The translations under genes were made by a program, and so were the position numbers. This document shows, one piece after another, positions 30,704 to 47,115 of a stretch of DNA of 47,115 bases. The stretch lies in the IMG/VR virus record IMGVR_UViG_3300020473_000047, positions 1-47,115 of that record; one strand, written 5' to 3'. The notes below the pieces were generated by a model that saw only the letters and a list, made by a program, of their open reading frames with translations, had not been told where the DNA came from and ran no database searches. The first letter of the stretch is position 1. The number at the start of each line of letters is the position of its first letter. The DNA comes from a virus.

Positions 30704-30706
30704 CTA

Positions 30707-32137: not shown

Positions 32138-32145
32138 TCATGAGA

Positions 32146-32153
32146 TATAAATA
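32146..32153 (+). promoter_or_regulatory. T4-type late promoter TATAAATA
   Basis: A perfect TATAAATA followed by ACTAAAAAAGTAAT, 17 bases before the next ATG. Same leader as before other fibre genes. Confidence 0.7.
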
Positions 32154-32170
32154 ACTAAAAAAGTAATAAT

Positions 32171-33073
32171 ATGCCTTATCTTGGTCGAGAACTTACTTCT
32201 GGGACTTATTTAAAACTTGATTCTATTCAGTCTCAGTTTAATGGTTCTTTAACTACATTTAATTTAAAGTCTGGTGGATCGGATTTTTATCCTGGTTCAT
32301 CATATTCCCTTATGGTATCTCTTGCTGGTATTGTGCAAGAGGCAGAATCTGCATATGAAATTAATAATAATCAAATAATATTCCAAGCACCACCAGCAAG
32401 TACAGATGATTGTTTTATAATTGTTTTGGGTCTTGCATTAGGTATTGGTGTGCCTGGTGATGGAACTGTTGGACTTGCACAATTAAATGAAACTGCTAAA
32501 CTTGATGTTCGTAAGAATAGTACATTAGTTGGTAGTGGTGTAACTGAAATAGATTTTAAAGGTACTGGTATATCAACAACACAATATAATACTACTGCTG
32601 GTATTGCTACAATATATGTTGATCAAGGTTCAAGTTTAGGTGTTACTACTTCAATTGGATTAGGTGCTGGTACAACTATATCAACTGGTAATTTACAAAC
32701 AATAAATTTTGCAGGACCAGGTGTTAGTACTGGATATTATAATTCTGGTGTTGGTATTGCTACTATTTTCTTTGAAGGTGGTGGTGGATCAGTAGGTGCT
32801 GCTGGAACTTGGAAGTCTGATTCAGTTGGTGTTGCTACAAGTAAAGTTGTTGGTGTTGGAACAGCACAAGCAGTTGGTACAGCAAATTCAGAAGGTGCAT
32901 TACAAGCATACGGTAATGTTGCGATTGTTGATGGAGTTTTAGCAACCGATCAAGTATTAGATACAAATGTTTTTGTACCAACAGGTCGAAATGGATTATT
33001 AGTTGGACCTGTTACAGTAGGTGTAGGAATTACACTTGATGTTGCTACAGGATCCACCCTAGTGGTAGTCTAA
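32171..33073 (+). CDS. virion structural protein, MPYLGRELTSG type
   Basis: A 300-residue Gly/Thr/Val-rich protein opening MPYLGRELTSGTYLKLDSIQ, a typical N-terminus of cyanophage structural proteins. One LMVSLAGIVQEAESAYEI domain is followed by a repeat-rich beta region (STLVGSGVTEIDFKGTGIS, NLQTINFAGPGVS). The C-terminus (GLLVGPVTVGVGITLDV, then LVVV) parallels that of 25744, so the two are probably paralogues with different N-terminal domains. No enzymatic motif. Confidence 0.72.
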   Translation: MPYLGRELTSGTYLKLDSIQSQFNGSLTTFNLKSGGSDFYPGSSYSLMVSLAGIVQEAESAYEINNNQIIFQAPPASTDDCFIIVLGLALGIGVPGDGTVGLAQLNETAKLDVRKNSTLVGSGVTEIDFKGTGISTTQYNTTAGIATIYVDQGSSLGVTTSIGLGAGTTISTGNLQTINFAGPGVSTGYYNSGVGIATIFFEGGGGSVGAAGTWKSDSVGVATSKVVGVGTAQAVGTANSEGALQAYGNVAIVDGVLATDQVLDTNVFVPTGRNGLLVGPVTVGVGITLDVATGSTLVVV

Positions 33074-33076
33074 ATA
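33070..33076 (+). promoter_or_regulatory. late promoter-like CTAAATA
   Basis: CTAAATA overlaps the preceding stop, 18 bases before the Gly-rich fibre gene. A weaker match to the late consensus, seen also at 37527, 43534 and 44791. Confidence 0.4.
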
Positions 33077-33094
33077 CAAGAAAAGATTATATAA

Positions 33095-34711: not shown

Positions 34712-34726
34712 TTATTAAAAATTATT

Positions 34727-35077
34727 ATGGCTTTTAGAAAATTTAATGGTACTGAATATCCAGTGCCTGGTGTAGATACTGCGATTCAAGTACTAAGACC
34801 AGGAGCACGTTGGGATTTAGAAAATAGAAAATTTAATGCATTTGAATGTGATGATGGATCTGAACCTCCAACTTGGGAGGAGATTGAAGAAGAAATTAAA
34901 AGAGAAGTAGAGATATATAATCACTATCTTTATGAAAGAAATCGTGAAAAAGAATATCCAGAATTAAAAGATCAACTGGATATGTTATATCACGATATTA
35001 AGAATGGAAATCTTGAGAATGGATCGTGGATTCAAGCAATAGATAGTATAAAGGAGAAATATCCTAAACCTGATTGA
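34727..35077 (+). CDS. small fibre-associated protein, DQLDxLY type
   Basis: A 116-residue protein directly after the Gly-rich fibre. The N-terminal part IQVLRPGARWDLEN resembles the chaperone-like protein at 20096. The C-terminal part YPELKDQLDMLYHDIKNG ... SIKEKYPKP matches 28537 and 39154. It thus looks like a hybrid of two adaptor types. Likely role is folding or capping of the neighbouring fibre, inferred from position. A consensus sigma70 promoter overlaps its stop codon. Confidence 0.68.
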   Translation: MAFRKFNGTEYPVPGVDTAIQVLRPGARWDLENRKFNAFECDDGSEPPTWEEIEEEIKREVEIYNHYLYERNREKEYPELKDQLDMLYHDIKNGNLENGSWIQAIDSIKEKYPKPD

Positions 35078-35102
35078 CACATATAGTAGAATCCTGTATA
35101 AT
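35074..35102 (+). promoter_or_regulatory. perfect sigma70 promoter, TTGACA-17-TATAAT
   Basis: TTGACA (35074-35079) and TATAAT (35097-35102) match the host consensus exactly with a 17-base spacer. It drives the three oxygenase genes, so these may be expressed early although they sit among late fibre genes. Confidence 0.85.
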
Positions 35103-35123
35103 GTTTTTGATGATATAATTTTT

Positions 35124-35762
35124 ATGGCATATCAATTTGTTTGGCACTTTACAGATCTTCCTGAGAAGGTTGTTGATATTATTGAAGACGACTTAAAAGA
35201 TAAATTTGATACTAAGATGAAAGATTCTCTTCTTTATGGAGCATCTATTGATAAGGATATAAGAAATTCACAAAGTACTTGGGTTCCTACTAGTCATTGG
35301 GTAGCAGGATTTATTTGGCATTATGTACAAAAAGCAAATAGGGAGAACTTTTTATATGATTTGAGTCATATTGATGGTGAAAATATGCAATATACAAGAT
35401 ATAGTGAAGGACAATATTATGGTTGGCATAATGATTCAGCGTTACCAACTCATTATAAACCATCATCTACTGCTATAAATGGAGAGGACTCTGTAAATAA
35501 TGAAGATCTTCGTAACGATTTTTTAAATAAATCTTGTGAGCAAATTAGAAAGTTATCATTTACATTACAACTTTCTCATCCTGATGACTATGAAGGTGGG
35601 AATATTGAATTTATGGGTGTAGATGATGCCAAGTACATTGCACCTAGGCAAAGAGGATCAATTGTTTTCTTTGATTCACGTATGAAGCATAGAGTTTGTG
35701 AAGTTACTAAAGGTGTTAGAAAATCTATAGTCGGATGGGTTATTGGTCCAAGATGGAAATGA
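35124..35762 (+). CDS. 2OG-Fe(II) oxygenase, prolyl 4-hydroxylase type
   Basis: A 212-residue oxygenase of the prolyl 4-hydroxylase superfamily. Iron ligands His102 and Asp104 (YGWHNDSAL) and His189 (MKHRVCEV), with Arg199 for 2-oxoglutarate, give the complete HxD...H...R set. The core strands KLSFTLQLS and GSIVFFDS support the fold. Such enzymes hydroxylate protein prolines or other substrates using oxygen and 2-oxoglutarate. It is first of three oxygenase-type genes behind a consensus promoter and next to a Pro/Gly-rich fibre, making fibre modification a possible but untested role. Confidence 0.85.
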   Translation: MAYQFVWHFTDLPEKVVDIIEDDLKDKFDTKMKDSLLYGASIDKDIRNSQSTWVPTSHWVAGFIWHYVQKANRENFLYDLSHIDGENMQYTRYSEGQYYGWHNDSALPTHYKPSSTAINGEDSVNNEDLRNDFLNKSCEQIRKLSFTLQLSHPDDYEGGNIEFMGVDDAKYIAPRQRGSIVFFDSRMKHRVCEVTKGVRKSIVGWVIGPRWK

Positions 35763-36418
35763 TTGAAGAAGATTTAATTAAAAGTGAGTTAGAAAATTCT
35801 GGTACTTCTTGGACTAAGAATGAGTTTTTTGATGCAAATGGATACTTAATAATTAAAAAGATATGTGATCCAAAATTACTTCATTGTTCTGTTCCAACAG
35901 ATAGAGGTTTATTTAAATGGTGGGGTATGAGAGAGGAGCAATTTATATCTTTTGATGATCAACAAGTAGAAGATTCAATTGAACGTTATTGGTATCCTCA
36001 ATATAGAGATATTCATATTAATATAAAAGATATAGTAGAAACAGCAATTGGTCGTGGACTTTATGAGACTTATTATTATGATAGGTTTTATTTTCCTGGA
36101 CAAGAATTAAAGAAACATGTAGATAGACCTGCTTGTGAAATATCAGTTACTGTTCATATTGATACTAATATTAAAGAAAACTGGCCTATATGGGTTAAAG
36201 ATGTTAATGGTGAGAATGTTCCTGTAGTATTAGAACCAGGTGATGCAATGATATATAAAGGTTGTGAAAGACCTCATTGGAGAGAACCAATGCCAGGTCT
36301 TTTAGAAAGTATAAGGGATGGACTAGATAAGCATTCATTATATTATCATCAAATATTTTTTCATTATGTGTTACAAGATGGAATAAGAGCACATTATGCA
36401 TGGGATAAAGGTCAGTAA
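35759..36418 (+). CDS. 2OG-Fe(II) oxygenase-like protein
   Basis: A 219-residue protein with an HxD...H set. Candidate ligands are His120 and Asp122 (LKKHVDRPACEISVTVHID) and His173 (CERPHWREP) after LEPGDAMIYKG, a typical turn before the distal histidine. The C-terminal YYHQIFFHYVLQDG fits the last strands. It resembles marine-phage dioxygenases with an N-terminal ~100-residue extension. The ATG in the ATGA overlap was chosen. In-frame ATGs at 35735 and 35753 are alternatives. Second gene of the oxygenase trio. Substrate unknown. Confidence 0.75.
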   Translation: MIEEDLIKSELENSGTSWTKNEFFDANGYLIIKKICDPKLLHCSVPTDRGLFKWWGMREEQFISFDDQQVEDSIERYWYPQYRDIHINIKDIVETAIGRGLYETYYYDRFYFPGQELKKHVDRPACEISVTVHIDTNIKENWPIWVKDVNGENVPVVLEPGDAMIYKGCERPHWREPMPGLLESIRDGLDKHSLYYHQIFFHYVLQDGIRAHYAWDKGQ

Positions 36419-37020
36419 TGGACATTATACAAAAACAGACTGATATAGATTGTAATGTATTAACTAATTTAATTCTTAAAAAAGAACCTCAGATTATAAA
36501 AAAGTATCCTCCCACTGGATTTGATGGTGAATATACTGATGGTCAAACTCAATTAGGATCTAATTCTTTAACTTCTAGATTTTATCATTTTAATGTTTTG
36601 GATTGGGATGGTACTGATTTAGTTAAAAAAACAATTAGATCTGGTTATGAAGCATATACTGGATTAATAGATACTCCAATTTATGTTAAGTGTTGGGCTA
36701 ATGTAATGAGAAAAGGAGATCAAATAAAATCCCATAAACATGCTGAACAATATAAGTATAGGGAAGAGGATTATTTGTGTGGACATATAAGTGTTAAAGT
36801 GGATGGTACAACTTCTACCTATTATCAAAGTAGTTCAGATATTCATTCATTTTTAAATATTAATGGTATGATTACTATATTTCCTTGTTATCTTTATCAT
36901 TGGACTGATCAATATAATGGAGATTCTGAAAGAATAACTTTGGCATTTGATATTAAATCAAAAAAATTATTTGATGTAGATATACATCCAGATGCTAAAT
37001 GGTCTTGGGTTGAAATTTAG
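36418..37020 (+). CDS. putative 2OG-Fe(II) oxygenase
   Basis: A 200-residue protein similar to the small phage family of putative 2OG-Fe(II) oxygenases. Blocks are YVKCWANVMRKGD, then His106 and His108 (KSHKHAEQ), GHISVKVDG, and ITIFPCYLYHWTDQ (His161) followed by SERITLAFDI (Arg172). The first motif is HxH rather than HxD, as in that family. It overlaps the gene before by one base and ends the trio. A late promoter-like motif follows. Confidence 0.72.
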   Translation: MDIIQKQTDIDCNVLTNLILKKEPQIIKKYPPTGFDGEYTDGQTQLGSNSLTSRFYHFNVLDWDGTDLVKKTIRSGYEAYTGLIDTPIYVKCWANVMRKGDQIKSHKHAEQYKYREEDYLCGHISVKVDGTTSTYYQSSSDIHSFLNINGMITIFPCYLYHWTDQYNGDSERITLAFDIKSKKLFDVDIHPDAKWSWVEI

Positions 37021-37023
37021 TAA

Positions 37024-37031
37024 CATAAATA
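37024..37031 (+). promoter_or_regulatory. late promoter-like CATAAATA
   Basis: CATAAATA starts three bases after the oxygenase stop and 21 bases before the next ATG. It would return the region to late control. Confidence 0.5.
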
Positions 37032-37052
37032 GTTGGAAACATAGTTGATATA

Positions 37053-37490
37053 ATGGCACATTACGCACAATTAGGGGTCGATAATATTGTTACTAGTGTA
37101 TGGACACTTGATAATATAAATTCTATGACTGTTGGTGGTATAGAAAAAGATGAGATTGGACAAGCATATCTTAAAAAACATCATGGCGATCTTACACTAG
37201 TTAAATGTTCATATAATACTGTTGAAGGAAAGCACCGCAAAGGAGGAACACCCTTTAGAGCAAATTATCCTGGGGTAGGTTGGTATTATAATTCTACACA
37301 CGATATATTTCATGAACCTCGTCCAAAAGATAAGAATGGAGAGTCTTGTGCTTCATGGACTTTAAATAATACAACTGGTATATATGAACCTCCTATACCA
37401 AGACCAGCTGGATCAGTAGGATCATACTGGGTATGGGATGAAACTGTATATAATGCAGATAATACTAAAGGATGGGTTATTTTAAGTTGA
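37053..37490 (+). CDS. conserved marine-phage protein, MAHYAQL type
   Basis: A 145-residue protein of a type seen in many marine myoviruses (opening MAHYAQLGVDNIVTSVWTLD, middle SYNTVEGKHRKGGTPFRANY then PGVGWYY, end CASWTLNN...YEPPIPRP). Aromatic and Pro-rich, no membrane helix or catalytic motif. Family members usually sit among tail and structural genes, so a virion-associated role is likely. The biochemical function is not known. Confidence 0.68.
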   Translation: MAHYAQLGVDNIVTSVWTLDNINSMTVGGIEKDEIGQAYLKKHHGDLTLVKCSYNTVEGKHRKGGTPFRANYPGVGWYYNSTHDIFHEPRPKDKNGESCASWTLNNTTGIYEPPIPRPAGSVGSYWVWDETVYNADNTKGWVILS

Positions 37491-37526
37491 CAAATAACTA
37501 CAAAATAGACTTCATAATGCTGCAGA

Positions 37527-37533
37527 CTAAATA
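37527..37533 (+). promoter_or_regulatory. late promoter-like CTAAATA
   Basis: CTAAATA in a 63-base gap, 20 bases before the modular fibre gene. Weak match. Confidence 0.4.
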
Positions 37534-37553
37534 GAAGTAAAACTGAAAGTATA

Positions 37554-38417
37554 ATGGCGTTAGGTAGTACTATAACTCAAGTTACAGAGTCTGGTATTAA
37601 ACCAGGAATTACTTGGCCTAGTTTTGTATCTAGTGGTGTTGCAACTGCTACAAATTTTAAGACAGGAACTACTGATGTTCATAGTACAGGTGTCACTGCT
37701 GCAACAGTTGTTGTTGGTTCTGCTGTAACAGGTAATTCTACTGGTTTGGATATAACTGGTATTGTAACTGCAACAAGTTTTAGTGGTAGTGGTGCAAACT
37801 TAACCAGCATTCCTGCTGGACAATTAACAGGTACTGTTGCTGACGCAAGAATATCAACATTAACATCATCAAAATTAAGTGGTGCATTACCTGCAATAGA
37901 TGGTTCAGCATTAATTGGTGTTGCTTCAACAGAATATATACATTCTTCAACAAATGCAGTATTAAGTGGAATAGTTACAACTGGACCTCTTAATTCTTCA
38001 ACAGGAAATTTTAGTAGTAATGTAACTATATCTGGAAACTTAGGTGTAGCAGGAACTGTTACTTATGAAGATGTAGCACGGGTTGATGCTACTGGATTAA
38101 GTACATTTAGAGAAGGATTTGGTGTTGGACCATTAGCAGGTCTAGCACTTACTGCTTATAAGGATGGTAGTATAAGAACATCTGGTATTGTAACTGCTGG
38201 TAGTTATTATGGTGATGGTGCTAACTTATCAAATCTTCCTGCTACTGCTCCTGTTGGTGGTGCAACAACAAATAAAGTATTTTTTAATAATGATCAGACA
38301 GTTTCAGTAACATATTCAATACCTGCAAATACAAATTCAGGAAGTTTTGGTCCGATCACAGTGGCAGCTGGACAAACGGTCACGATACCATCAGGATCTT
38401 ATTGGACTATTGTATAA
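37554..38417 (+). CDS. modular tail-fibre protein, short
   Basis: A 287-residue fibre protein. It contains NFKTGTTDVHSTGV, related to 21195 and 27199, a linker GANLTSIPAGQLTGTVADAR, and the 59-residue module at 157-215. It ends in a compact strand region (YSIPANTNSGSFGPITVAAG, then SYWTIV) in place of a large tip. The module's first 62 bases are identical to those in 18589. The next gene, after a late promoter, encodes a tip-like protein. Confidence 0.78.
   Translation: MALGSTITQVTESGIKPGITWPSFVSSGVATATNFKTGTTDVHSTGVTAATVVVGSAVTGNSTGLDITGIVTATSFSGSGANLTSIPAGQLTGTVADARISTLTSSKLSGALPAIDGSALIGVASTEYIHSSTNAVLSGIVTTGPLNSSTGNFSSNVTISGNLGVAGTVTYEDVARVDATGLSTFREGFGVGPLAGLALTAYKDGSIRTSGIVTAGSYYGDGANLSNLPATAPVGGATTNKVFFNNDQTVSVTYSIPANTNSGSFGPITVAAGQTVTIPSGSYWTIV
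38022..38198 (+). repeat. fibre module copy 7 (177 nt)
   Basis: In-frame 59-codon block. The first 62 bases are identical to copy 1 (18781), pointing to recent exchange. Confidence 0.9.
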
Positions 38418-38420
38418 ATA
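38413..38420 (+). promoter_or_regulatory. T4-type late promoter TATAAATA
   Basis: A perfect TATAAATA overlaps the preceding stop, 23 bases before the next ATG, followed by a strong ribosome site AGGAGG. Confidence 0.65.
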
Positions 38421-38443
38421 TTAGGAAGTAGGAGGTCGAATTA

Positions 38444-39154
38444 ATGCCAGTAACTATTAGTGGAGCAGGAACAATAGCAGGAATCACCACAGGTGGTTTA
38501 CCAGATGCAATTGTTGATACGGATATGATTAAGGCAGGTGTTGTCCAGAATGCTCATATGAATACAATGGATGCCAGTAAACTAACTGGAACATTGGGAG
38601 CTTTAGCAGCCACTAATTTAACAGGTCTACCTGCTGCTCGTTTAACTGGTGCATTACCTGCACTTGATGGATCTAATTTAACTGGTGTTGGTAGTAATAT
38701 TCTTAAGCAACAATACTTTAATGTTGAGTGGTTAAGATCTTCTTCTAATAGTTGGTCAAATGGACCTACGATGACATATACTACAGTTGATCCAGACTCA
38801 AAGATAAATATTCAATTGTATGGTACTGGTATGGGTCATTTTTGGGGTAGTAGTGATGATGATGCTGCATATCATATGAGAATCTATAGAATTTCACCAT
38901 CTGCTGCGGAATTAAAGAGATCTGGATTCTATGTTGAATATCCTAATGATCGTATTGGTGGTGGTGGTGATTTTAGTGAGTGGTCTGGTGCTCCTCGTGT
39001 CTATTGGCTTCCCAATACTATTGGACATTGTTTTGATAATCCCTGTACTAGTGCAGGAGATGATATTACATTTCGTTTTGATATATTAAGATGTTCCGCA
39101 TCTGTTTATGATATGGATGGTTCATCTTATTGGATGGTTACGGAGTTTACCTAA
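38444..39154 (+). CDS. fibre protein with beta-rich tip domain
   Basis: A 236-residue protein. The N-terminus MPVTISGAGTIAGITTGGLP is common in cyanophage fibres, followed by shaft motifs AARLTGALPALDGSNLTGV shared with 30707 and 37554. From about 85 a distinct aromatic beta domain (YFNVEWLRSSSNSW, SKINIQLYGTGMGHFWG, ending SSYWMVTEFT) probably forms the tip. AGGAGGTCG gives a strong ribosome site. An adaptor gene overlaps its stop by one base. Confidence 0.72.
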   Translation: MPVTISGAGTIAGITTGGLPDAIVDTDMIKAGVVQNAHMNTMDASKLTGTLGALAATNLTGLPAARLTGALPALDGSNLTGVGSNILKQQYFNVEWLRSSSNSWSNGPTMTYTTVDPDSKINIQLYGTGMGHFWGSSDDDAAYHMRIYRISPSAAELKRSGFYVEYPNDRIGGGGDFSEWSGAPRVYWLPNTIGHCFDNPCTSAGDDITFRFDILRCSASVYDMDGSSYWMVTEFT

Positions 39155-39492
39155 TGGCTTATAACAATGAAACGCAAACTGAAGATGAAGGTAGAGCTTT
39201 ATTTTTACTATCTGTAGAGGGCAGAAATGCTGATGATTGGATTCCTTGGAGTGTCGATCATCGTGGTCTTATATGGAATAATGGTAAAACAGATCCACCT
39301 ACTCAAGCAGAAGTAGATGCCAAGATTGCAGAATTTAAAGCAGCTGATCTTGCAAATGCTTATAAAGAACTTAGACGTAAAGAATATCCTCAGATAGGAG
39401 ATCAATTAGATGATCTATATAAAAAAGGTGCTTTTTCTGATGAGATGGCAGCGAAAATTAAAAAAGTAAAAGATGATATTCCAAAACCATGA
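39154..39492 (+). CDS. small fibre-associated protein, DQLDxLY type
   Basis: A 112-residue protein starting at TAATG with the preceding fibre. The ATG was chosen over an upstream TTG. The C-terminal signature YPQIGDQLDDLYKKGAF ... KKVKDDIPKP matches 28537 and 34727. The N-terminal half (FLLSVEGRNADDWIPWSVDH, PPTQAEVDAKIAEF) resembles the PT-x-x-E-I helix of the other adaptors. Probably a chaperone or adaptor for the fibre before it. Overlaps the next gene as ATGA. Confidence 0.65.
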   Translation: MAYNNETQTEDEGRALFLLSVEGRNADDWIPWSVDHRGLIWNNGKTDPPTQAEVDAKIAEFKAADLANAYKELRRKEYPQIGDQLDDLYKKGAFSDEMAAKIKKVKDDIPKP

Positions 39493-40112
39493 CATTAAAA
39501 TTATTAGGATCTAGTTCAGGACATACAGCATTAGATGCTCCAGCATCAGCAGGGAGTAATACTCTTGTCCTTCCTCCAAATAACGGGACGGCAGGTCAGG
39601 TTTTGCAGACTGATGGAAATGGAAATTTGACATGGATTACTCCAAACTCACCAGCATTTTTTGCATATTGGAATGCTAATACTACTCAGACAATATCAAA
39701 CACTACTAATACAGCAGCAAGTTGGTTGACTTCTGAAATGTTTGATACAGATAGTGCTTATGATACATCAAATCAAAGATTTACAGTTCCTGCTGGAAAG
39801 GGTGGAAAATATGTAATTAATGCAGGATGTAATCTTTATTCTAATGGTAATTCCCTAAGATCAGCAATAATAAGAATAAAACTAAATGGATCGGGAACTT
39901 GGGCTGCATCTCAATACAGCTTAATTATGAATAATGATGAAAATAGAGTTCGACACGCTCAAATTAACCTTAATACTATGTTAAATCTTGCTGCTGGCGA
40001 CTATATTGAACTTGTTGTTTATGGAGAAGTTCTTAATAATACATTGTATATTAGTAATGATGCAAGTGGAGTAAAATCTAATTTCCTTTCAGGTTATAAA
40101 TTAATGGTATAG
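39489..40112 (+). CDS. tail-fibre protein with C1q-like tip
   Basis: A 207-residue protein. The N-terminal 55 residues (GHTALDAPASAGSNTLVLPP, then NNGTAGQVLQTDGNGNLTW) are the common phage fibre lead-in. The rest is a C1q/TNF-like domain (AYWNANTTQTIS, DTSNQRFTVPAGKGGKYVI, LAAGDYIELVVYG). The whole protein is lead-in plus tip with almost no shaft. It overlaps the adaptor gene before and precedes another fibre after four bases. Confidence 0.75.
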   Translation: MTLKLLGSSSGHTALDAPASAGSNTLVLPPNNGTAGQVLQTDGNGNLTWITPNSPAFFAYWNANTTQTISNTTNTAASWLTSEMFDTDSAYDTSNQRFTVPAGKGGKYVINAGCNLYSNGNSLRSAIIRIKLNGSGTWAASQYSLIMNNDENRVRHAQINLNTMLNLAAGDYIELVVYGEVLNNTLYISNDASGVKSNFLSGYKLMV

Positions 40113-40116
40113 AATT

Positions 40117-41280
40117 ATGAGTACATTAAACGTAGAAGGAATTAAGAATACCGCAGCAACAAGTGATGCAATTTCGTTTGCTACGGATGGAACGTGTACG
40201 GCACGACTTACTAATCCAAGAAGTCATCGCAATTTGATAGTTAATGGGGCCATGAGAGTGGCCCAGAGAGGGACCTCATCCACATCTAGTGGTTATTACA
40301 CAGTTGATAGATTTAAATATACTTATAGTGGAACTGACAATGCACCTACACAGGCACAAGTTGATGTTGCTTCTGGTACAACACCTTATACTTTAGGGTT
40401 TAGAAAAGCTTATAAAATTACAAATGCAAATCAAACAGGTGGTGCTGGTGCTGGTGATCATATTCGATTAGAAGTTAATATTGAAGCACAGGATATAGCA
40501 AATAGTGGTTGGAATTATAAATCTAGTTCAAGTTATATAACTTTATCTTTCTGGTGTAAATCAAGTGTTGCACAAAATTTCTATGCTGGTATAAGAACAC
40601 CAGATGGAACATCACAAGGATATTCTTTTGAGACAGGTTCTTTAACTGCCGATACTTGGACAAAAATTACAAAAACAATTCCTGGCAACAGTAATTTAAC
40701 TTTTGATAATGATGCTGAACTAGGGTGGAACATGGATATTGCTATGTTTATGGGAACAAATAATACTACTTCTGGAAACACAATGAATCAATGGGCTGCA
40801 TACTCTGGTTCTAATGAAATGCCAGATAATACATCAACTTGGTACACAACAAACGGTGCTACTTGGGAAATTACAGGAGTTCAGTTAGAAGTAGGAGATA
40901 CGGCAACAGATTTTGAGCATAGAACATATGCTGATGAAATATTACGCTGTTATCGTTATTTCTATAAAGCTCCTGGATATAATAGTCATGCAATGTTCTC
41001 AAGAGGTAATACTGCAGTCGGGGCTACTGTTAACACGCCCGTTCCTATGAGGACAGCACCAACGAGTGGACCAACAAATTGGGTAAGAGTTCAAAGACCA
41101 GGTGTTGATTATGGAGATTCTTCTGCTGGTAGCTGGACAGTAGGAGGTGCTGCTCCTGCAGTTACAGTAACAGGAAGTTATATTTTCTTTCAATATGGTT
41201 CTATGTCAAATGTAACAAACACATCAAATACTGTTTATGGGTTTCTTACTTACGATCTTGAATTAAATGCTGAATTATAA
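40117..41280 (+). CDS. tail-fibre protein with NG...YRYF-type tip domain
   Basis: A 387-residue protein made almost wholly of the distal domain HRNLIVNGAMRVAQRG ... EHRTYADEILRCYRYFY with a 35-residue lead-in (MSTLNVEGIKNTAATSDAIS). It is the fourth relative of the tips at 23050, 29105 and 30707. Inner strands include YITLSFWCKSSVAQNF and TWEITGVQLEVGD, and it ends YDLELNAEL. It has no 177-nt module. It closes the fibre array, and a strong early-type promoter follows. Confidence 0.8.
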   Translation: MSTLNVEGIKNTAATSDAISFATDGTCTARLTNPRSHRNLIVNGAMRVAQRGTSSTSSGYYTVDRFKYTYSGTDNAPTQAQVDVASGTTPYTLGFRKAYKITNANQTGGAGAGDHIRLEVNIEAQDIANSGWNYKSSSSYITLSFWCKSSVAQNFYAGIRTPDGTSQGYSFETGSLTADTWTKITKTIPGNSNLTFDNDAELGWNMDIAMFMGTNNTTSGNTMNQWAAYSGSNEMPDNTSTWYTTNGATWEITGVQLEVGDTATDFEHRTYADEILRCYRYFYKAPGYNSHAMFSRGNTAVGATVNTPVPMRTAPTSGPTNWVRVQRPGVDYGDSSAGSWTVGGAAPAVTVTGSYIFFQYGSMSNVTNTSNTVYGFLTYDLELNAEL

Positions 41281-41284
41281 AGAG

Positions 41285-41313
41285 TTGACAGATATATAAA
41301 ATTAATTTATAAT
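41285..41313 (+). promoter_or_regulatory. perfect sigma70 promoter, TTGACA-17-TATAAT
   Basis: TTGACA (41285-41290) and TATAAT (41308-41313) with a 17-base spacer, an exact consensus. Transcription would begin near 41320, at the foot of three hairpins with no reading frame. Confidence 0.88.
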
Positions 41314-41319
41314 ATTTAC

Positions 41320-41426
41320 ATCTTCAACTTCCTTGCAGTTTTTTCGGAATTGAAGTACACTTCTCTGTGGTGGGAGGAGTGTGTTGGTGAGAAGACAAGG
41401 GGGAGTTAGTCCCCCTTTCTTTTTAT
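41320..41426 (+). ncRNA. candidate small structured RNA
   Basis: About 105 bases between a consensus promoter and a rho-independent terminator hold no convincing reading frame. They fold into three successive hairpins: CTTCAAcTTCC/GGAATTGAAG (41322-41332 with 41346-41355), CTTCTC/GAGAAG (41360-41365 with 41389-41394), and the terminator stem. A purine-rich GGTGGGAGGAG lies in the loop of the second. It could be a trans-acting RNA or a leader for the glutaredoxin operon. No known family was recognised. Confidence 0.55.
41397..41424 (+). terminator. rho-independent terminator
   Basis: An 8-bp stem AAGGGGGA/TCCCCCTT with a 5-base loop, followed by TCTTTTT. It ends the candidate small RNA 34 bases before the glutaredoxin start, so the gene either relies on read-through or on another promoter. 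Confidence 0.88.
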
Positions 41427-41457
41427 ATAAATTACTTTGTAAGCAATTATACAGAAC

Positions 41458-41694
41458 ATGAATTTCACAATTTTTTCCAAAGATGGTTGCCCATATTGCG
41501 ATAAGGTAAAGCAGGTATTAGAGTTGACAGAAAGTAAGTTTGTAGTGTATACTTTGGATAAGCAATTTGATAAAAAAGCATTTTATGGTGAATTTGGAGA
41601 AGGGTCTACGTTCCCACAGGTTGTTGTTGATGGTAAAAAGTTAGGAGGATCAGTTGAAACAATTAAATTCCTCAAAGAAAACAAAATCGTCTAG
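41458..41694 (+). CDS. nrdC: glutaredoxin
   Basis: A 78-residue glutaredoxin with the dithiol active site Cys11-Pro-Tyr-Cys14 (DGCPYCDKVK) and the cis-proline loop STFPQVVVDG. It reduces disulfides, most likely donating electrons to ribonucleotide reductase as T4 NrdC does, supporting deoxynucleotide supply in the host cytoplasm. A possible internal promoter (TTGACA at 41524, TATACT at 41548, 18-base spacer) lies inside the gene. The symbol rests on T4 analogy. Confidence 0.88.
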   Translation: MNFTIFSKDGCPYCDKVKQVLELTESKFVVYTLDKQFDKKAFYGEFGEGSTFPQVVVDGKKLGGSVETIKFLKENKIV

Positions 41695-41803
41695 GAAGGA
41701 GATAAATAAAGTCAACGACCATATAGATCGTGGATTTGAATTTATTCTTAAAGGAGGAAAGAAAAAGCAGAACGACAACCAATTACCTGAAGGAGATAGA
41801 AAA

Positions 41804-42031
41804 ATGTCTACAGATATAGTATTAACTTTATTTTTACCAGTATCTTTATTATTCTTTTTTGTAGGAACTCTATTTGGGTGGGCTGCACGAGACTATATGA
41901 TGAACTATCGGGAAGTACCAAGACCTCACCCCGAAATGTTAGATATAAATGGGAATATAATTCCCGATGAGGTTATAGCATTCAGATTTGAAAACAATTA
42001 TGACAACGACGACGACGAAGAAGACGACTAA
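41804..42031 (+). CDS. small membrane protein, conserved in cyanophages
   Basis: A 75-residue protein. Residues about 4-24 (DIVLTLFLPVSLLFFFVGTL) form one membrane helix, followed by GWAARDYMMNYREVPRPHPE and an acidic tail. The ATG behind GAAGGAGA was chosen. The frame stays open upstream to 41654 and its codons look protein-like (HIDRGFEFILKGGKKK), yet no good start is seen there, only a TTG inside the glutaredoxin gene. GATAAATA at 41701-41708 may be a late promoter. Function unknown. Confidence 0.6.
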   Translation: MSTDIVLTLFLPVSLLFFFVGTLFGWAARDYMMNYREVPRPHPEMLDINGNIIPDEVIAFRFENNYDNDDDEEDD

Positions 42032-42584
42032 AAAAGTCTCTAAACCTATTGAAAAATTACCACATAATCCATTTGTTTTTGAGGTATTGGATTTAGTATC
42101 TCGACAAAGAACTAAAGGTAATAAAGTAAAGGTACTTCAGGAGCATAGAGATCCTTCATTAGAAGCAATTCTTATTTGGAATTTTGATGATACTTGTATA
42201 TCATTACTTCCAGCAGGTGAGGTTCCTTATGATGGTTATGATGAACAAACCAGTTATAGTGGAACATTATCTACTAAAATTTCACATGAAGTTCGTAAGA
42301 TGCACGAAGCTGGAAGCTTTTCTCTAGGTGCAAGTGATACTCAGGGACGTACTTCAATTCGTAGAGAATTTAAGAATTTTTATAATTTTCTAAAAGGTGG
42401 TAATGATGAGATGAATAATATTCGTCGTGAGGCAATGTTTATTAATATACTAGAAGGTCTTCATCCATTAGAAGCAGAGATTCTTATTCTTACTAAAGAT
42501 CATGATTTAGAGTCTAAGTATAAGATTACAAAGGAAGTAGTAGCACAGGCATATCCTGAAATAACTTGGGGTGGTCGATCATGA
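42000..42584 (+). CDS. conserved T4-like cyanophage protein (DUF6433-like)
   Basis: A 194-residue soluble protein with a Thr/Lys-rich start followed by PHNPFVFEVLDLVSRQRTKG, IWNFDDTCISLLPAGEVPY and LHPLEAEILILTKDHDLESK. It matches my memory of a protein family of unknown function found in T4-like phages near the thyX/phoH region. The ATG at 42000 was chosen over a TTG. It overlaps the membrane protein gene by 32 bases and the next gene by four (ATGA). No catalytic motif is evident. Confidence 0.7.
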   Translation: MTTTTTKKTTKKVSKPIEKLPHNPFVFEVLDLVSRQRTKGNKVKVLQEHRDPSLEAILIWNFDDTCISLLPAGEVPYDGYDEQTSYSGTLSTKISHEVRKMHEAGSFSLGASDTQGRTSIRREFKNFYNFLKGGNDEMNNIRREAMFINILEGLHPLEAEILILTKDHDLESKYKITKEVVAQAYPEITWGGRS

Positions 42585-42925
42585 CAACTACCGTAAAAGA
42601 AAAGCAAAAAGCGGAAGAGAAGCAAGAAGAGGAAAGTATTAAACCTTCTGATTATTCTTGTGAACTTCTTTTAGAAAAAACTACTATGGAGAAGGCAAGA
42701 GATCCTAAGTTTCCTACTGATGCTTTTAATGTGACTTATGTTGTTGATGGTAAGCAGCATCTTGATGTTATTCGTTCTGGTAAACAAGTAAATGTGTTTG
42801 ATTACTATTATGATAAGTACGGGAAAGATTCTGTAAAAGGGATTGATTGGGGATATGGTAATGTAAATCCAAATTCATATGGATATAAAAAACCAGTACC
42901 ACCTAAGAAAAGAAGGAAGGGATAA
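42581..42925 (+). CDS. conserved hypothetical protein
   Basis: A 114-residue protein with a charged N-terminus (KEKQKAEEKQEEE) that may be disordered, a central soluble domain (FNVTYVVDGKQHLDVIRSGK, VFDYYYDKYG) and a basic Pro/Lys-rich end (KPVPPKKRRKG), which could bind nucleic acid. The ATG at the ATGA overlap was chosen over an upstream TTG. A strong terminator follows 22 bases after its stop. Family not recognised. Confidence 0.62.
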   Translation: MTTTVKEKQKAEEKQEEESIKPSDYSCELLLEKTTMEKARDPKFPTDAFNVTYVVDGKQHLDVIRSGKQVNVFDYYYDKYGKDSVKGIDWGYGNVNPNSYGYKKPVPPKKRRKG

Positions 42926-42946
42926 ACTAAATTCAACTTTTTTTCC

Positions 42947-42980
42947 AAAATATCCCGATAAAAAATCGGGGTATTTTTTT
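42947..42980 (+). terminator. rho-independent terminator
   Basis: A 13-bp stem AAAATATCCCGAT / ATCGGGGTATTTT (one wobble), a 5-base A loop and a T-run. It closes the nrdC operon. A degenerate relative lies at 27113-27177. Confidence 0.85.
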
Positions 42981-43061
42981 GTCTGTAAGGTTTTTTAAGA
43001 ATTGTATCAGAGAATACACATTTACTTGCCTATATACTATAACTGTGTTAGTATTAACACA

Positions 43062-43107
43062 ATCGTTCATCCCGAAAGGGACGCAAGTAAGCCGACTCGG
43101 AACGGAT
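43062..43107 (+). promoter_or_regulatory. glutamine-II riboswitch (Downstream-peptide RNA)
   Basis: The sequence has the conserved core of the Downstream-peptide RNA, a glutamine riboswitch known from marine cyanobacteria and their phages: ATCGTTCAtccc, a GAAA-capped TCCC/GGGA hairpin (70-73 with 78-81 of 43000), GACGCAAGTAAGCCGACT and GGAACGG. P1 is CGTTC (43064-43068) with GAACG (43100-43104). It directly precedes a short peptide gene, the arrangement that named the motif. A second copy of ATCGTTCATCCC (43106-43117) abuts the start codon and could pair with the same GAACG strand. Recognition is from memory of the consensus. Confidence 0.8.
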
Positions 43108-43117
43108 CGTTCATCCC

Positions 43118-43285
43118 ATGTTTCACTTACAATCTATTCTTATAGCTGCTTCTCTAACTTGTTCTGAAGCATATGAACTTGTCGATAAGATGAGGGAGTA
43201 TAAAGTTGATGAGGAGATACGAACTGAAATGATTCAGATCGTTAAGGAAGAGAGTAGGGAATGTTGGGACGCAAAAGCCGACTAA
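43118..43285 (+). CDS. riboswitch-controlled small peptide
   Basis: A 55-residue protein (MFHLQSILIAASLTCSEAYE...), helical, with a mildly hydrophobic N-terminus and a charged C-terminal helix. It starts right after the glutamine-type riboswitch, so glutamine, a signal of nitrogen status, probably controls it. Downstream peptides of this RNA are known in cyanobacteria but poorly understood. Some are thought to act on glutamine synthetase-related regulation. Whether this one does is inference. The only ribosome-site-like sequence (CGGAACGGA) lies inside the aptamer. Confidence 0.72.
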   Translation: MFHLQSILIAASLTCSEAYELVDKMREYKVDEEIRTEMIQIVKEESRECWDAKAD

Positions 43286-43294
43286 AGGAACGGG
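43266..43294 (+). promoter_or_regulatory. second, degenerate Downstream-peptide-like element
   Basis: GGGACGCAA and AAGCCGACT plus GGAACGG repeat the 3' half of the upstream aptamer, spanning the peptide's stop codon. A CGTT at 43240-43243 could supply P1, but no strand for the TCCC/GGGA hairpin is seen. Possibly a decayed second riboswitch before the next small gene. Confidence 0.5.
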
Positions 43295-43324
43295 TTAAAA
43301 TCCAACTACTTTAGGAGTAATCCA

Positions 43325-43468
43325 ATGGCAAAAGTCACATACAGAGGTGTCGAATATGATACCGAAGAGTACAATAAAAAAGTACTCGCTGAAGAAGCTC
43401 AAAAAAGAAATCATGATTTAATGTATCGTGGTATTAGACATGAACGTAAGTTCGCATCTAAGAGCTAG
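43325..43468 (+). CDS. DUF4278-like small protein
   Basis: A 47-residue basic protein. The paired motifs VTYRGVEYDTEEY and MYRGIRHERKF match the cyanobacterial DUF4278 pattern (a short YRG repeat). It has a good ribosome site (TTAGGAGTAA) and follows the degenerate riboswitch-like element, so it may respond to nitrogen signals with the gene before. Function unknown. A strong terminator follows. Confidence 0.7.
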   Translation: MAKVTYRGVEYDTEEYNKKVLAEEAQKRNHDLMYRGIRHERKFASKS

Positions 43469-43493
43469 ATTCACACTTGCATATACGTTTAAA

Positions 43494-43522
43494 GAAGACC
43501 TATTGACAGGTCTTCTTTTTTT
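43494..43522 (+). terminator. rho-independent terminator
   Basis: A perfect 8-bp stem GAAGACCT/AGGTCTTC with a 6-base loop, followed by seven T. It ends the riboswitch-peptide unit. Confidence 0.93.
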
Positions 43523-43533
43523 GTGTAAAATAA

Positions 43534-43540
43534 CTAAATA
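43534..43540 (+). promoter_or_regulatory. late promoter-like CTAAATA
   Basis: CTAAATA just after the terminator and 13 bases before the next ATG. Weak match, but well placed to start the following transcript. Confidence 0.4.
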
Positions 43541-43553
43541 CCATATAAAATTT

Positions 43554-43727
43554 ATGGAACCTGAAAGAGAAAAATTAAAATTAATAGTTCGGAATCTAGA
43601 ATTATTAGTTGATGCTCTTAAAGCAGAGGTGTATTCCGATGTCGATGCATACAAAAATTCTACTGCTTTTGAAAGACCAGTAGATTATGATGAACTTTAT
43701 GATGATGACGATGGCTACACAGACTAG
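43554..43727 (+). CDS. small acidic protein
   Basis: A 57-residue protein with an N-terminal amphipathic helix (REKLKLIVRNLELLVDALKA) that may form a coiled coil, and an Asp/Tyr-rich tail (VDYDELYDDDDGYTD). An upstream GTG in frame would run back through the terminator and was rejected. It overlaps the next gene by 17 bases. Function unknown. Confidence 0.6.
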   Translation: MEPEREKLKLIVRNLELLVDALKAEVYSDVDAYKNSTAFERPVDYDELYDDDDGYTD

Positions 43728-43881
43728 AGCAAAAAAGTTAATCAAAATGATGAAGAGACTTATGAAAAATGAGTTTCTATATACTGACGAGGAACTGAAA
43801 GATATGAGAGCACAGTTACGAGTCTTAGAAGAAGAACTTGCTCTCCAAGAATCAAAAAATTCAAAAGGATTTGGTAAATGA
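43711..43881 (+). CDS. small helical basic protein
   Basis: A 56-residue protein (MATQTRAKKLIKMMKRLMKN ...) with a Lys/Met-rich first helix and a Glu/Leu-rich second (EELKDMRAQLRVLEEELALQ), suggesting a helical hairpin or coiled coil. The ATG at 43711 was preferred to one at 43687, which would add a run of methionines inside the previous gene. Overlaps the next gene as ATGA. Function unknown. Confidence 0.6.
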   Translation: MATQTRAKKLIKMMKRLMKNEFLYTDEELKDMRAQLRVLEEELALQESKNSKGFGK

Positions 43882-44162
43882 CTGTAAAATTAATTCGTAT
43901 GTGGTCTGGTGAAGATGTAATCGCTGATCTTATTGAAGATGAGGGAAATTATATTACAATTGAAAATCCAATTGTTGCTGTTCCTTCACCTCAACAAGGA
44001 CAAATTGCATTTGCTCCTTGGTCTCCTTTACTTAAAAAAGATAAAATTGAAGTTACTAGAAAGTATCTTGTATACATTGGAGATCCACAAGAAGAAATTA
44101 TCGAACAATATAATTCAATGTTTGGTAAACTATCAAAACCTACAAAACAATTAATTCTCTGA
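43878..44162 (+). CDS. conserved marine-phage protein, MTVKLIRMWSGE type
   Basis: A 94-residue beta-rich protein. Conserved-looking blocks are MTVKLIRMWSGEDVIADLIE, IENPIVAVPSP and IAFAPWSPLL, followed by KYLVYIGDP. The strand spacing is reminiscent of Sm-like folds, which is only an impression. Relatives occur upstream of thyX in other marine myoviruses as far as I recall. It overlaps thyX by one base (TGATG). Function unknown. Confidence 0.65.
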   Translation: MTVKLIRMWSGEDVIADLIEDEGNYITIENPIVAVPSPQQGQIAFAPWSPLLKKDKIEVTRKYLVYIGDPQEEIIEQYNSMFGKLSKPTKQLIL

Positions 44163-44794
44163 TGACTGTAAAACTTATAAGCATTACTCCTGATGCGGAA
44201 CAAACTATGGCATATATTGCTAGAGTTTCTAATCCATCTAATCAGGGAAATGAAAAATATGCAGGACTATTAAAGTACTGTATCAAACATAATCATTGGA
44301 GTGTCTTTGAACAATCTTCTATGACTTTAGAGATTGAGACTACTCGTGCTATTGCTGCACAGATACTAAGACATCGTAGTTTCACATTCCAAGAGTTCTC
44401 TCAAAGGTATGCTGCTAGTACTGCACTTGGTGATATCCCATTACCAGAATTGAGAAGACAGGATACAAAGAACCGTCAGAATTCCACTGATGATTTAGAT
44501 CCTAAGATGGTAGAAACATTGAACAAACAAATGGAAACATTATTTGGTTCTGCAACTGCATTGTATAATCAGATGCTAGAGGATGGTGTTGCTAAAGAGT
44601 GTGCTAGAATGGTATTACCTTTATGTACTCCTACCAGAATATACATGACTGGTTCTTGTCGTTCTTGGGCTCATTATATCAATTTAAGATCAGCACATGG
44701 AACACAAAAAGAGCATATGGAAATTGCAGAACAATGTAGAAAAATCTTTGTTGAACAGTTTCCTTCAGTCTCAGAAGCCCTTGAATGGGTCTAA
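44162..44794 (+). CDS. thyX: flavin-dependent thymidylate synthase
   Basis: A 210-residue ThyX, which makes dTMP from dUMP using FAD, NADPH and methylene-tetrahydrofolate. The signature RHRxxxxxxxS is present at Arg70-His71-Arg72 to Ser80 (LRHRSFTFQEFSQRY). Further support comes from WSVFEQSSMTLEIETTRAIA before it and LCTPTRIYMTGSCRSW after. The length fits the family. It supplies thymidine nucleotides for phage replication, together with the glutaredoxin that can support ribonucleotide reductase. Confidence 0.97.
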   Translation: MTVKLISITPDAEQTMAYIARVSNPSNQGNEKYAGLLKYCIKHNHWSVFEQSSMTLEIETTRAIAAQILRHRSFTFQEFSQRYAASTALGDIPLPELRRQDTKNRQNSTDDLDPKMVETLNKQMETLFGSATALYNQMLEDGVAKECARMVLPLCTPTRIYMTGSCRSWAHYINLRSAHGTQKEHMEIAEQCRKIFVEQFPSVSEALEWV

Positions 44795-44797
44795 ATA
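44791..44797 (+). promoter_or_regulatory. late promoter-like CTAAATA
   Basis: CTAAATA overlaps the thyX stop, 21 bases before the next ATG. A TATAAT also lies close to that ATG but has no -35 at a proper distance. Confidence 0.35.
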
Positions 44798-44818
44798 CCT
44801 TTACACATCATTATAATT

Positions 44819-45070
44819 ATGGCAACTTATCCTGTAGTTAATACTAAAACTGGCGATCAAAAAGAAGTCGTGATGAGCGTTCACGATTGGGATCAATGGT
44901 GTAAAGATAACCCTGATTGGACTAGAGATTATTCTGATCCTTCTACAATGCCTGGTGTTGGAGAAGTTGGTGATTGGAAAGCAAAACTTGTTAGAGGAAA
45001 ACCAGGTTGGAATGAAGTATTAGAAAGAGCTCAGAAGCAGCCAGGTGCTAATAAGTTAAAGATTGATTGA
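44819..45070 (+). CDS. conserved small cyanophage protein
   Basis: An 83-residue soluble protein (TYPVVNTKTGDQKEVVMSVH, WDQWCKDNPDWTRDY, GEVGDWKAKLVRGKPGWNEV). The N-terminal layout resembles FmdB-like regulatory proteins, but the zinc cysteines are lacking. It sits between thyX and phoH, an order I recall from other T4-like cyanophages. Overlaps phoH by one base. Function unknown. Confidence 0.66.
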   Translation: MATYPVVNTKTGDQKEVVMSVHDWDQWCKDNPDWTRDYSDPSTMPGVGEVGDWKAKLVRGKPGWNEVLERAQKQPGANKLKID

Positions 45071-45789
45071 TGTCTAAAAGAAAATCTAGACAAATGAAAA
45101 GAAAAAAACCAATAAATTCTGAGTTTTTAGTTGATATAGAACCTATCACTGATAATCAGAGAGTATTATGCAATTCATATGCTGAAGGAAAGCATATTAT
45201 TGCATATGGTGTAGCAGGAACAGGTAAAACATTTATTACTCTTTATAACGCACTTAAAGAAGTTTTAGATGAAAATACCCCTTATGAAAAAATCTATATG
45301 GTTCGATCTCTTGTTGCTACGAGAGAAATTGGATTCCTTCCTGGTGACCATGAAGATAAATCTGATATTTATCAAGTACCATATAAGCATATGGTGAAGT
45401 ATATGTTTCAGATGTCTTCTGATGCAGAATTTGAAATGTTATATGGAAATCTTAGAGCACAAGATACAATTAAGTTTTGGAGTACTTCATTCTTAAGAGG
45501 AACAACGTTAGATAATGCTATTATTATCGTTGATGAATTTCAAAACTTGAATTTTCACGAACTTGATAGTATAATAACAAGAGTAGGTCAAAATAGTAAA
45601 ATCTTCTTTTGTGGAGATGCTAGTCAGACTGACTTACAGAAAACAAACGAACGAAATGGAATTATTGACTTTATGAAAATAATTCGTTCTATGCCTTCCT
45701 TTGATTTAATTGAATTTGGTATAGATGATATAGTTCGTTCTGGACTTGTTAAAGAGTACCTTATTGCTAAACTTGAACAAAATATGTAA
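45070..45789 (+). CDS. phoH: PhoH-like P-loop ATPase
   Basis: A 239-residue PhoH-family ATPase. Walker A is GVAGTGKT at 47-54 and Walker B IIIVDEFQN at 151-159, followed by the FFCGDASQTD motif near 182-191 typical of the family. A basic N-terminus (KRKSRQMKRKK) may bind RNA. PhoH is very common in marine phages. Its role is unsettled, with phosphate stress and RNA metabolism both proposed. The ATG at the TGATG junction was chosen over the TTG one codon earlier. No pho-box was recognised. Confidence 0.95.
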   Translation: MSKRKSRQMKRKKPINSEFLVDIEPITDNQRVLCNSYAEGKHIIAYGVAGTGKTFITLYNALKEVLDENTPYEKIYMVRSLVATREIGFLPGDHEDKSDIYQVPYKHMVKYMFQMSSDAEFEMLYGNLRAQDTIKFWSTSFLRGTTLDNAIIIVDEFQNLNFHELDSIITRVGQNSKIFFCGDASQTDLQKTNERNGIIDFMKIIRSMPSFDLIEFGIDDIVRSGLVKEYLIAKLEQNM

Positions 45790-46475
45790 TGTTTAATCAC
45801 ATTGATTTGAATCTACAGCCTCTTGAAAGAGAGCATATAGATGGAGTTCGTTATTATAAAGTTCCAGATGAAGATGAACTTATTAAAATGGTTTCTATTA
45901 CTTCGGTAACTAGTCATTTTAATAAAGAGATCTTTGTCAATTGGAGAAAAAAAGTTGGTAATGAGACAGCAGATAAAATCACGAAGGCAGCAACCAAACG
46001 TGGTACTGATATGCATACTCTTACTGAACATTATCTAAAGAATGATGAAGAACTTCCTAAAGTTCCTCCTATTTCTGATATGTTATTCAAGATTGCTAAG
46101 GATAATCTTAATAAAATAGATAATATCTATGCTCTCGAAGGTCCCCTATATAGTAAAGAATTAGGTATTGCTGGAACAGTTGATTGTATTGCAGAATATA
46201 ATGGCGAGTTAGCGATAATAGACTTTAAAACATCTAAAAAACCTAAACCACGAGAGTGGATAGAACATTACTTTGTTCAGGCAATGGCATATGGATGTAT
46301 GCTATATGAAATGAAAAATATTTCAATTAAAAAACTTGTAATTATTATGGCTTGTGAAAATGGAGAATGTGTTGTCTATGAAGAAACTGACAAAGCAAAG
46401 TACATCAAACTTCTCGGTGAGTACATTAGAAAGTTTGTTGGAGATAAATTGGAACTCTATGGAACCGAAAAATGA
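45789..46475 (+). CDS. PD-(D/E)XK exonuclease, Cas4/MGME1-like
   Basis: A 228-residue nuclease of the PD-(D/E)XK superfamily, closest in layout to Cas4/RecB-type and MGME1 exonucleases. Active-site residues are Glu117 (ALEGPLYS), Asp132 (IAGTVDCI) and Asp145/Lys147 (AIIDFKTSKK), with the leading RGTDMHTLTE helix at 71-80 and a QAMAYG motif after. No iron-sulfur cysteine cluster is present, unlike Cas4. Likely acts on single-stranded DNA ends in recombination or processing. It overlaps phoH by one base and gp33 by 17. Confidence 0.85.
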   Translation: MFNHIDLNLQPLEREHIDGVRYYKVPDEDELIKMVSITSVTSHFNKEIFVNWRKKVGNETADKITKAATKRGTDMHTLTEHYLKNDEELPKVPPISDMLFKIAKDNLNKIDNIYALEGPLYSKELGIAGTVDCIAEYNGELAIIDFKTSKKPKPREWIEHYFVQAMAYGCMLYEMKNISIKKLVIIMACENGECVVYEETDKAKYIKLLGEYIRKFVGDKLELYGTEK

Positions 46476-46719
46476 ATTAGAGAAGGTAATAGAGAGTAAA
46501 TTTCTAACACCTCAAAAATTTGCTATCGAAATAGAAAAGATTGTTTCGGAAGAAGAACTTAACTATATTGATGCTATAGTACACTATTGCGAAATTAACA
46601 GTCTTGAGGTAGAATCAGTAACGAAACTGATATCTAAGCCTTTAAAGGAAAAACTAAAGTGGGATGCAACCCGTCTTAACTTTATGAAACCTACATCAAG
46701 GGCGAAACTTCCTATCTAA
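46459..46719 (+). CDS. 33: late transcription coactivator gp33-like
   Basis: An 86-residue protein similar to T4 gp33, which bridges RNA polymerase and the sliding clamp to activate late promoters. Typical are FAIEIEKIVSEEELNYIDAI in the first half and the end KEKLKWDATRLNFMKPTSRA before KLPI. The ATG at 46459 (MEPKNELEK) was chosen. Frames starting further upstream would lie within the exonuclease gene. Its presence fits the many TATAAATA late promoters upstream. The matching sigma factor gp55 is not in the window. Confidence 0.82.
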   Translation: MEPKNELEKVIESKFLTPQKFAIEIEKIVSEEELNYIDAIVHYCEINSLEVESVTKLISKPLKEKLKWDATRLNFMKPTSRAKLPI

Positions 46720-47096
46720 TGTACGATACAGATTATGACCACATTTGGCGTAATGCTTTTTTAAGAGCAACTCCAGTTGTTTTTAATATGGTTTGTGTTC
46801 TTCTTATTGGACTTGCTCCTCTTTATTTAATTCTTAGGACAAGACAAGAGATGACTCAAATTTTGACTACATCAACTACTGATATAATGCCTACATCAAC
46901 GGAATTACTACACTATCGTCTTCAAGCGATTTTGCGTGATTATAATATGCCTGATCTTGAGTATATTGGTGAACGTCCCAGTTATAAAACTGGTGATAAT
47001 GTTCCTTGGTATCGTATAGGAAAAGCAGAAGTTCCTATTGATGCTATAACAGAATTAGATACTGAGGAAGATGAAGACGAAAGTGACTCCCTTTGA
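46719..47096 (+). CDS. single-pass membrane protein between gp33 and gp59
   Basis: A 125-residue protein with one membrane helix at about 18-40 (TPVVFNMVCVLLIGLAPLYL), a Thr-rich linker, a soluble middle (LHYRLQAILRDYNMPDLEYI) and a very acidic C-terminus (DTEEDEDESDS). It starts at TAATG after gp33. No family recognised. Position in the gp33-gp59 block is the only clue. It overlaps the next frame by 26 bases. Confidence 0.65.
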   Translation: MYDTDYDHIWRNAFLRATPVVFNMVCVLLIGLAPLYLILRTRQEMTQILTTSTTDIMPTSTELLHYRLQAILRDYNMPDLEYIGERPSYKTGDNVPWYRIGKAEVPIDAITELDTEEDEDESDSL

Positions 47097-47115
47097 AACT
47101 TATCAAACTTATCTT
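47071..47115 (+). CDS. 59: start of probable helicase loader gp59
   Basis: Fifteen codons (MKTKVTPFETYQTYL) run off the window edge. The VTPFxTYxTYL start and the position after gp33 match T4-like gp59, which loads the gp41 helicase on forked DNA. A GTG at 47083 is an alternative start. The partial length limits certainty. Confidence 0.6.
   Translation, partial: MKTKVTPFETYQTYL

Follow-up and report, generated by a model that had tools for sequence, protein, structure and literature searches.

Introduction

Among the closest described counterparts of the RNA considered in this study is CfrI of cyanophage S-PM2, a non-coding RNA of ~225 nt that is antisense to psbA (PMC12197685, PMC9602691). 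Both are non-coding RNAs of T4-like cyanophages; the present RNA is set apart by its position between fibre genes and nrdC and by its own promoter and terminator. The PhotoRC-II, wcaG, and manA RNAs as well as the glutamine riboswitch are likewise structured RNAs of marine T4-like cyanophages that were found through conservation (PMC2864571, PMC9964418). They are cis-regulatory leaders, whereas the RNA examined here has no Rfam match. Among host RNAs, Yfr1, Yfr2, and Yfr10 are similarly short and, besides a hairpin and a terminator, have a conserved word that stays unpaired. The word of Yfr1 lies single-stranded between two hairpins and that of Yfr10 in a loop, an arrangement comparable to the two UGGU copies reported below (PMC6778093, PMC2190773). 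However, these are host RNAs with the word ACUCCUCACAC, whereas the present RNA is phage-encoded and its word is UGGU. The portions of the cyanophage literature covered by our search, which mention CfrI, PhotoRC-II, wcaG, manA, the glutamine riboswitch, and an abiF sRNA predicted with Rfam in S-CREM1, contain nothing placed before nrdC; infection transcriptomes were outside the scope of that search.

Results

The window, i.e. the entire 47,115-nt stretch of viral DNA that was analysed, carries the arrangement compiled in Table 1 at the junction between its fibre genes and nrdC, a location which has proved typical for relatives of the RNA as well. A sequence-only reading had described an exact promoter followed by three hairpins, the last of them a terminator, at this junction. 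Both the scan and the fold bear this out, and the predicted start (~41319-41321) and end (~41422-41426) agree with the ~105-nt transcript that it had expected. Two 12/12 TTGACA-17-TATAAT promoters are present in the 47-kb window, and 3 of 30 dinucleotide shuffles had one each; the other one, at 35074-35102, lies directly 5' of a 2OG-Fe(II) oxygenase gene. The terminator stem at 41397-41417 was the best-scoring site of the terminator scan, 18 terminator-like sites were found within 30000-47115 vs 7.0 expected, and in the predicted fold the terminator hairpin begins at ~41390. The transcript 41320-41426 folds at -44.4 kcal/mol vs -28.0 +/- 3.1 for shuffled sequences (z -5.3; 0/200 as good). On its 5' side, the RNA gene adjoins a frame of 387 aa for which Pfam gave no match, and the TATAAAT that follows it is what we take to be the late-promoter-like site of nrdC. 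An antisense placement relative to psbA, as in CfrI, was not found, with psbA at 9833-10915 and the RNA at 41319-41424 of the window. A separate terminator-like hairpin at 43491-43531 contains in its loop and 3' arm the TTGACA of a promoter-like TTGACA-17-TAAAAT, which creates an overlap of terminator and promoter.

Table 1. Features of the candidate small RNA gene and its downstream neighbour in the window
Feature	Position	Strand	Evidence
Promoter, sigma-70-type, TTGACA-17-TATAAT	41285-41313	+	Matches consensus exactly; kept at the equivalent spot in relatives
Predicted small RNA, ~105 nt	41319-41424	+	Fold and family; 5' and 3' ends predicted
Hairpin 1, interrupted stem with U-rich apical loop	41322-41355	+	Fold; two-sided changes in 6/9 modelled pairs
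Hairpin 2, with hexaloop GUGGUG at 41367-41372	41356-41383	+	Fold; two-sided changes in 6/8 modelled pairs
First UGGU site, hairpin 2 loop	41368-41371	+	61/61 distinct elements; unpaired probability 1.0
Second UGGU site, linker	41385-41388	+	60/61 distinct elements; unpaired probability 0.93-0.96
Intrinsic terminator hairpin and T run	41397-41424	+	Terminator scan; kept in 106/109 distinct copies among the matches listed
TATAAAT site	41426-41432	+	Within 75 nt downstream in 98/109 distinct copies among the matches listed
nrdC, glutaredoxin (neighbour, outside the RNA gene)	41458-41694	+	Pfam PF00462, E 4e-13

A search of viral contigs with the NrdC protein yielded 80 loci, and a near-identical promoter-hairpins-terminator block was present 5' of nrdC in L001, L003, L004, L007, L008, L009, L014, and L054, with cut copies in L002 and L037. 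From a covariance model of 15 members, pattern scans, and repeated model searches, we assembled a family of at least 194 matches, one of which is a weak chance match (the second L192 match, 22 bits), leaving at least 193 genuine matches and at least 89 distinct sequences. The L001, L083, and L087 contigs were omitted from the hit list, as they were already counted under other locus ids, and L324, which is cut within hairpin 2, is not part of the at least 193; other identical sequences stay in this figure and are collapsed in the distinct sets. A pattern scan selected on GTGGTG contributed at least 117 new loci, with model matches in 114 and none in L139, L145, and L153. In whole-record scans of 18 IMG/VR contigs, 13 had one copy and five had two, one of the second matches being weak (22.8 bits).

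The element occurs in marine and freshwater viruses alike. The only isolate found to carry it is Synechococcus phage S-SRM01, which came from a reservoir in Singapore and has the element at record position 10976. Our second model, R2, scores this copy at 63 bits and did not find the element in the other 15 of the 16 phage records searched; the first model, R1, matched strongly in one of 13 phage records. A second, weak S-SRM01 match was discarded, as it overlaps an annotated endonuclease gene. The same phage encodes a gene annotated as a porin (34931-36391), an unusual cargo for a phage. Searches by blastn with the window region, the S-SRM01 element, and L121 returned no member beyond S-SRM01 itself, plasmids gave terminator-like matches only, and three terminator-like matches that were examined had ordinary surroundings. 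In picocyanobacterial genomes, R1 matched in 0/300 at E 0.01 under strict filters, a result that is uninformative without a genome known to match, and in 2/15 at E up to 1, while R2 matched in 3/39 at E up to 0.05, where ~2 are expected, none of which, when inspected, combined a promoter and a terminator with a GUGGUG hairpin. These scans, the large one run under strict filters, point to no convincing host relative in picocyanobacterial genomes. The earlier impression that the RNA belongs to no known family also holds, as none of the Rfam 15 families matched it near gathering scores. The two gathering matches of the window lie elsewhere: a PhotoRC-II RNA (RF01717) at 9700-9797, upstream of the phage psbA, and a glutamine riboswitch aptamer (RF01739) at 43062-43108, which scores 35.1 vs a gathering score of 35 and precedes a short frame at 43118.

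Within the family, it is the paired architecture that is maintained. Among 89 aligned distinct sequences from the matches listed, two-sided changes occur in 12 of the 17 modelled pairs (shuffled mean 7.4), the covariation score is 0.279 vs 0.145 for shuffles (0/500 as high) with slid structures scoring 0.068-0.118, and 91.8% of paired cells are maintained as pairs vs 84.2% in shuffles. This alignment (A3) was fitted to the model structure and leans towards it, but a MAFFT alignment of 15 sequences that was not structure-fitted (A2) agrees, with two-sided changes in 6/17 pairs and 0/500 shuffles. The sequence-only reading had staked its small-RNA proposal beforehand in part upon conservation or covariation of the stems in relatives, and this is what they exhibit, along with conservation of both the promoter and the terminator. 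The pattern is most easily seen in hairpin 2, where a constant GUGGUG is enclosed by arms of CUUCUC/GAGAAG, CCUCUC/GAGAGG, CCUUUC/GAAAGG, or CCUCUUC/GAAGAGG and the closing pair is U-G, U-A, G-U, or A-U in nearly all members. The apical loop of hairpin 1 is of the UUGUAnCUUU type in relatives.

These arms also decide the fate of a ribosome-binding-site role suggested earlier. GGGAGGAG had been placed in the second loop and GGTGGGAGGAG had been thought able to pair with, or mimic, ribosome-binding sequences. This reading fails because GGGAGGAG is the variable 3' stem arm of hairpin 2, whose loop is GUGGUG: the AGGAG is part of the stem and is replaced in relatives by AGAAG, AGAGG, AAAGG, or GAAGAGG, each matched by changes on the opposite arm, and the only part that is kept is GUGGUG/UGGU.

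The promoter is a 12/12 match in 71 and an 11/12 match in 14 of 86 distinct copies among the matches listed, and the one remaining copy, of the L136 type, lacks it; these 86 have sufficient upstream DNA, were not selected on the promoter, and include no loci from the promoter-plus-hairpin-1 scan. Its -10 box ends 5 nt 5' of the modelled core in nearly all copies; therefore, transcription likely starts at the base of hairpin 1. The resulting RNA would be 95-124 nt long (mean 103) in the distinct copies among the matches listed. The earlier observation that no reading frame lies within the element extends to its relatives: no frame is kept across members, all three frames occur, and the start codon is missing in several. 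A leader peptide or attenuator with tandem Trp codons (UGGUGG) was considered and rejected, since the frames are not conserved; the UGG of the loop is readable as Trp in 16/89 sequences, and WW occurs in 38/75 frames starting from hairpin 1, both among the matches listed. The element has several marks of a phage small-RNA gene, namely its own promoter and terminator, compensatory changes, and no conserved frame.

To assess the loop, we excluded matches selected on GTGGTG and used only elements found through promoter and hairpin 1 or through nrdC. In this loop-blind set, UGGU is present in the hairpin 2 loop of 61/61 elements and in the single-stranded linker of 60/61 vs 42% of shuffled linkers, the exception being a fused copy. 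The entire loop is GTGGTG in 40 of 44, GTGGTT or ATGGTG in three, and cut by the contig end in one. A pseudoknot between loop 1 and the linker received no support (37/300 shuffles equally good). As far as sequence can tell, the two conserved unpaired UGGU words are the strongest functional hint available and form the basis for the mechanism proposed below. The target search with the loop that had been recommended earlier did not succeed among phage mRNAs: in the start regions of 178 orthologous gene trios from three carrier phages, no target stood out beyond shuffles, with shuffled segments as good in 20/40 cases for loop 2, 28/40 for the linker, and a marginal 3/40 for loop 1. Six loop bases make a weak seed, which leaves room for a protein partner.

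Discussion

The cyanophage small-RNA family described here is, judging from its sequences, real and, as far as searched, previously undescribed. The anatomy of the gene, its family, the covarying structure, both conserved UGGU sites, and the independence from nrdC can all be read from the DNA, and we infer from these the expression, timing, trans action, and partner of the RNA. The element probably constitutes a phage gene in its own right, encoding a ~105-nt trans-acting small RNA that is made early and acts via its two UGGU sites upon a host partner. Presumably, the host RNA polymerase with its housekeeping sigma factor would transcribe the near-perfect promoter early in infection and the two stable hairpins together with the terminator would protect the product. 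Two unpaired copies of UGGU would then be on display, one in the hairpin 2 hexaloop and the other in the linker that leads to the terminator. They would pair with host RNA bearing sequence of the ACCA/CACCA type or, with lower likelihood, bind an RNA-binding protein of the host, such that host RNA use would be redirected as infection starts. Of these two modes, base-pairing to host RNA is slightly preferred over protein capture. A more specific version, which we offer only tentatively as it is itself improbable, is an early two-site decoy, in which UGGU captures ACCA-bearing host RNAs, such as a class of host mRNAs or the CACCA 3' ends of A73 tRNAs, those with A as discriminator; such ends would match UGGUG.

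The usual location of the RNA invites a different interpretation, namely that it serves the nrdC operon in cis, as a leader or attenuator. Hairpins 1 and 2 would then respond to a ligand or protein and determine whether transcription continues past the terminator into nrdC. Among the matches listed, nrdC begins 60-79 nt past the modelled core in 172 of 193 copies, and both hairpins have conserved loops, as an aptamer might. The element is not always upstream of nrdC, however: the gene is ~700 nt past the core in two of these 193 copies, the flank is too short in another two, and no nrdC occurs within up to 1.5 kb downstream in 17. Complete elements with their own promoter and terminator lie away from nrdC in L133 and L155, and L322 has one with promoter, hairpins, and terminator whose next gene is other than nrdC. 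In the L136 group, the element is located between two frames, the downstream one collagen-like by eye, and retains hairpins and terminator with no recognisable promoter. Furthermore, a separate late-promoter-like TATAAAT follows the terminator in 98 of the 109 distinct copies among the matches listed, several loci that lack the RNA have a similar TATAAAT-type site 5' of nrdC, and many phages have nrdC and lack the RNA. An unsystematic look revealed no antiterminator. Because copies complete with promoter and terminator also occur at other sites, the RNA is not simply an nrdC leader, a reading that we regard as unlikely overall; an autonomous RNA gene fits better, with a cis role at the usual site possible. 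At L133 7055-7120 (+) and L155 3353-3418 (-), the element is followed by a promoter-like site and then two small frames, the second being antitoxin-like by eye.

CsrB-type RNAs sequester CsrA, with CsrB offering many GGA sites. By analogy, the RNA could be a decoy that uses its two UGGU sites to titrate away an RNA-binding protein of the host. It shares with CsrB a short word that is repeated in loops and single strands, here one hairpin loop and one single strand, and the word and shape are conserved whereas the flanks are not. On the other hand, it has just two UGGU sites per molecule rather than many GGA, no candidate protein presents itself, and we judge this possibility improbable. Far more doubtful is the idea that the RNA acts as a sponge for Yfr1; the conserved word of this host small RNA, ACUCCUCACAC, comes close to complementing hairpin 2 of the window. 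Such pairing has a precedent in Prochlorococcus Yfr2, which binds Yfr1 via complementary regions (PMC6778093), and the window RNA reaches -14.4 kcal/mol with the Yfr1 word (11/300 shuffles equally good). The family mean of -10.5 is nevertheless about the shuffled mean of -9.9, so complementarity to ACUCCUCACAC is not conserved, and the bases that would pair with it belong to the stem, where they change together with their partners. We give equally little credence to the idea that the element, rather than being a regulator, serves recombination or marks a transcription boundary at the junction with the fibre genes. It does adjoin fibre genes, and two contigs (L119 and L326) hold a second copy that is joined to a Gly-rich frame at hairpin 2, but a boundary element needs no covarying hairpin pair, early promoter, or invariant unpaired UGGU sites. 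These second copies of the RNA gene, at L119 12584-12650 (-) and L326 6436-6502 (-), count among the copies away from the usual site before nrdC, are broken within hairpin 2, and retain the promoter and first half of the element, the fusions having apparently arisen by recombination near fibre genes.

For the autonomous trans-acting RNA that we favour, S-SRM01 is an isolate phage with a host, which makes the target of the RNA testable. It is also evident that Rfam-based annotation of cyanophage genomes overlooks a structured RNA family. Few trans-acting RNAs of phages are known, and for cyanophages the portions of the papers we searched name only CfrI and the abiF sRNA. Should the tentative two-site decoy be borne out, a step of host RNA use would pass, as infection begins, under the control of a phage RNA and not of a protein.
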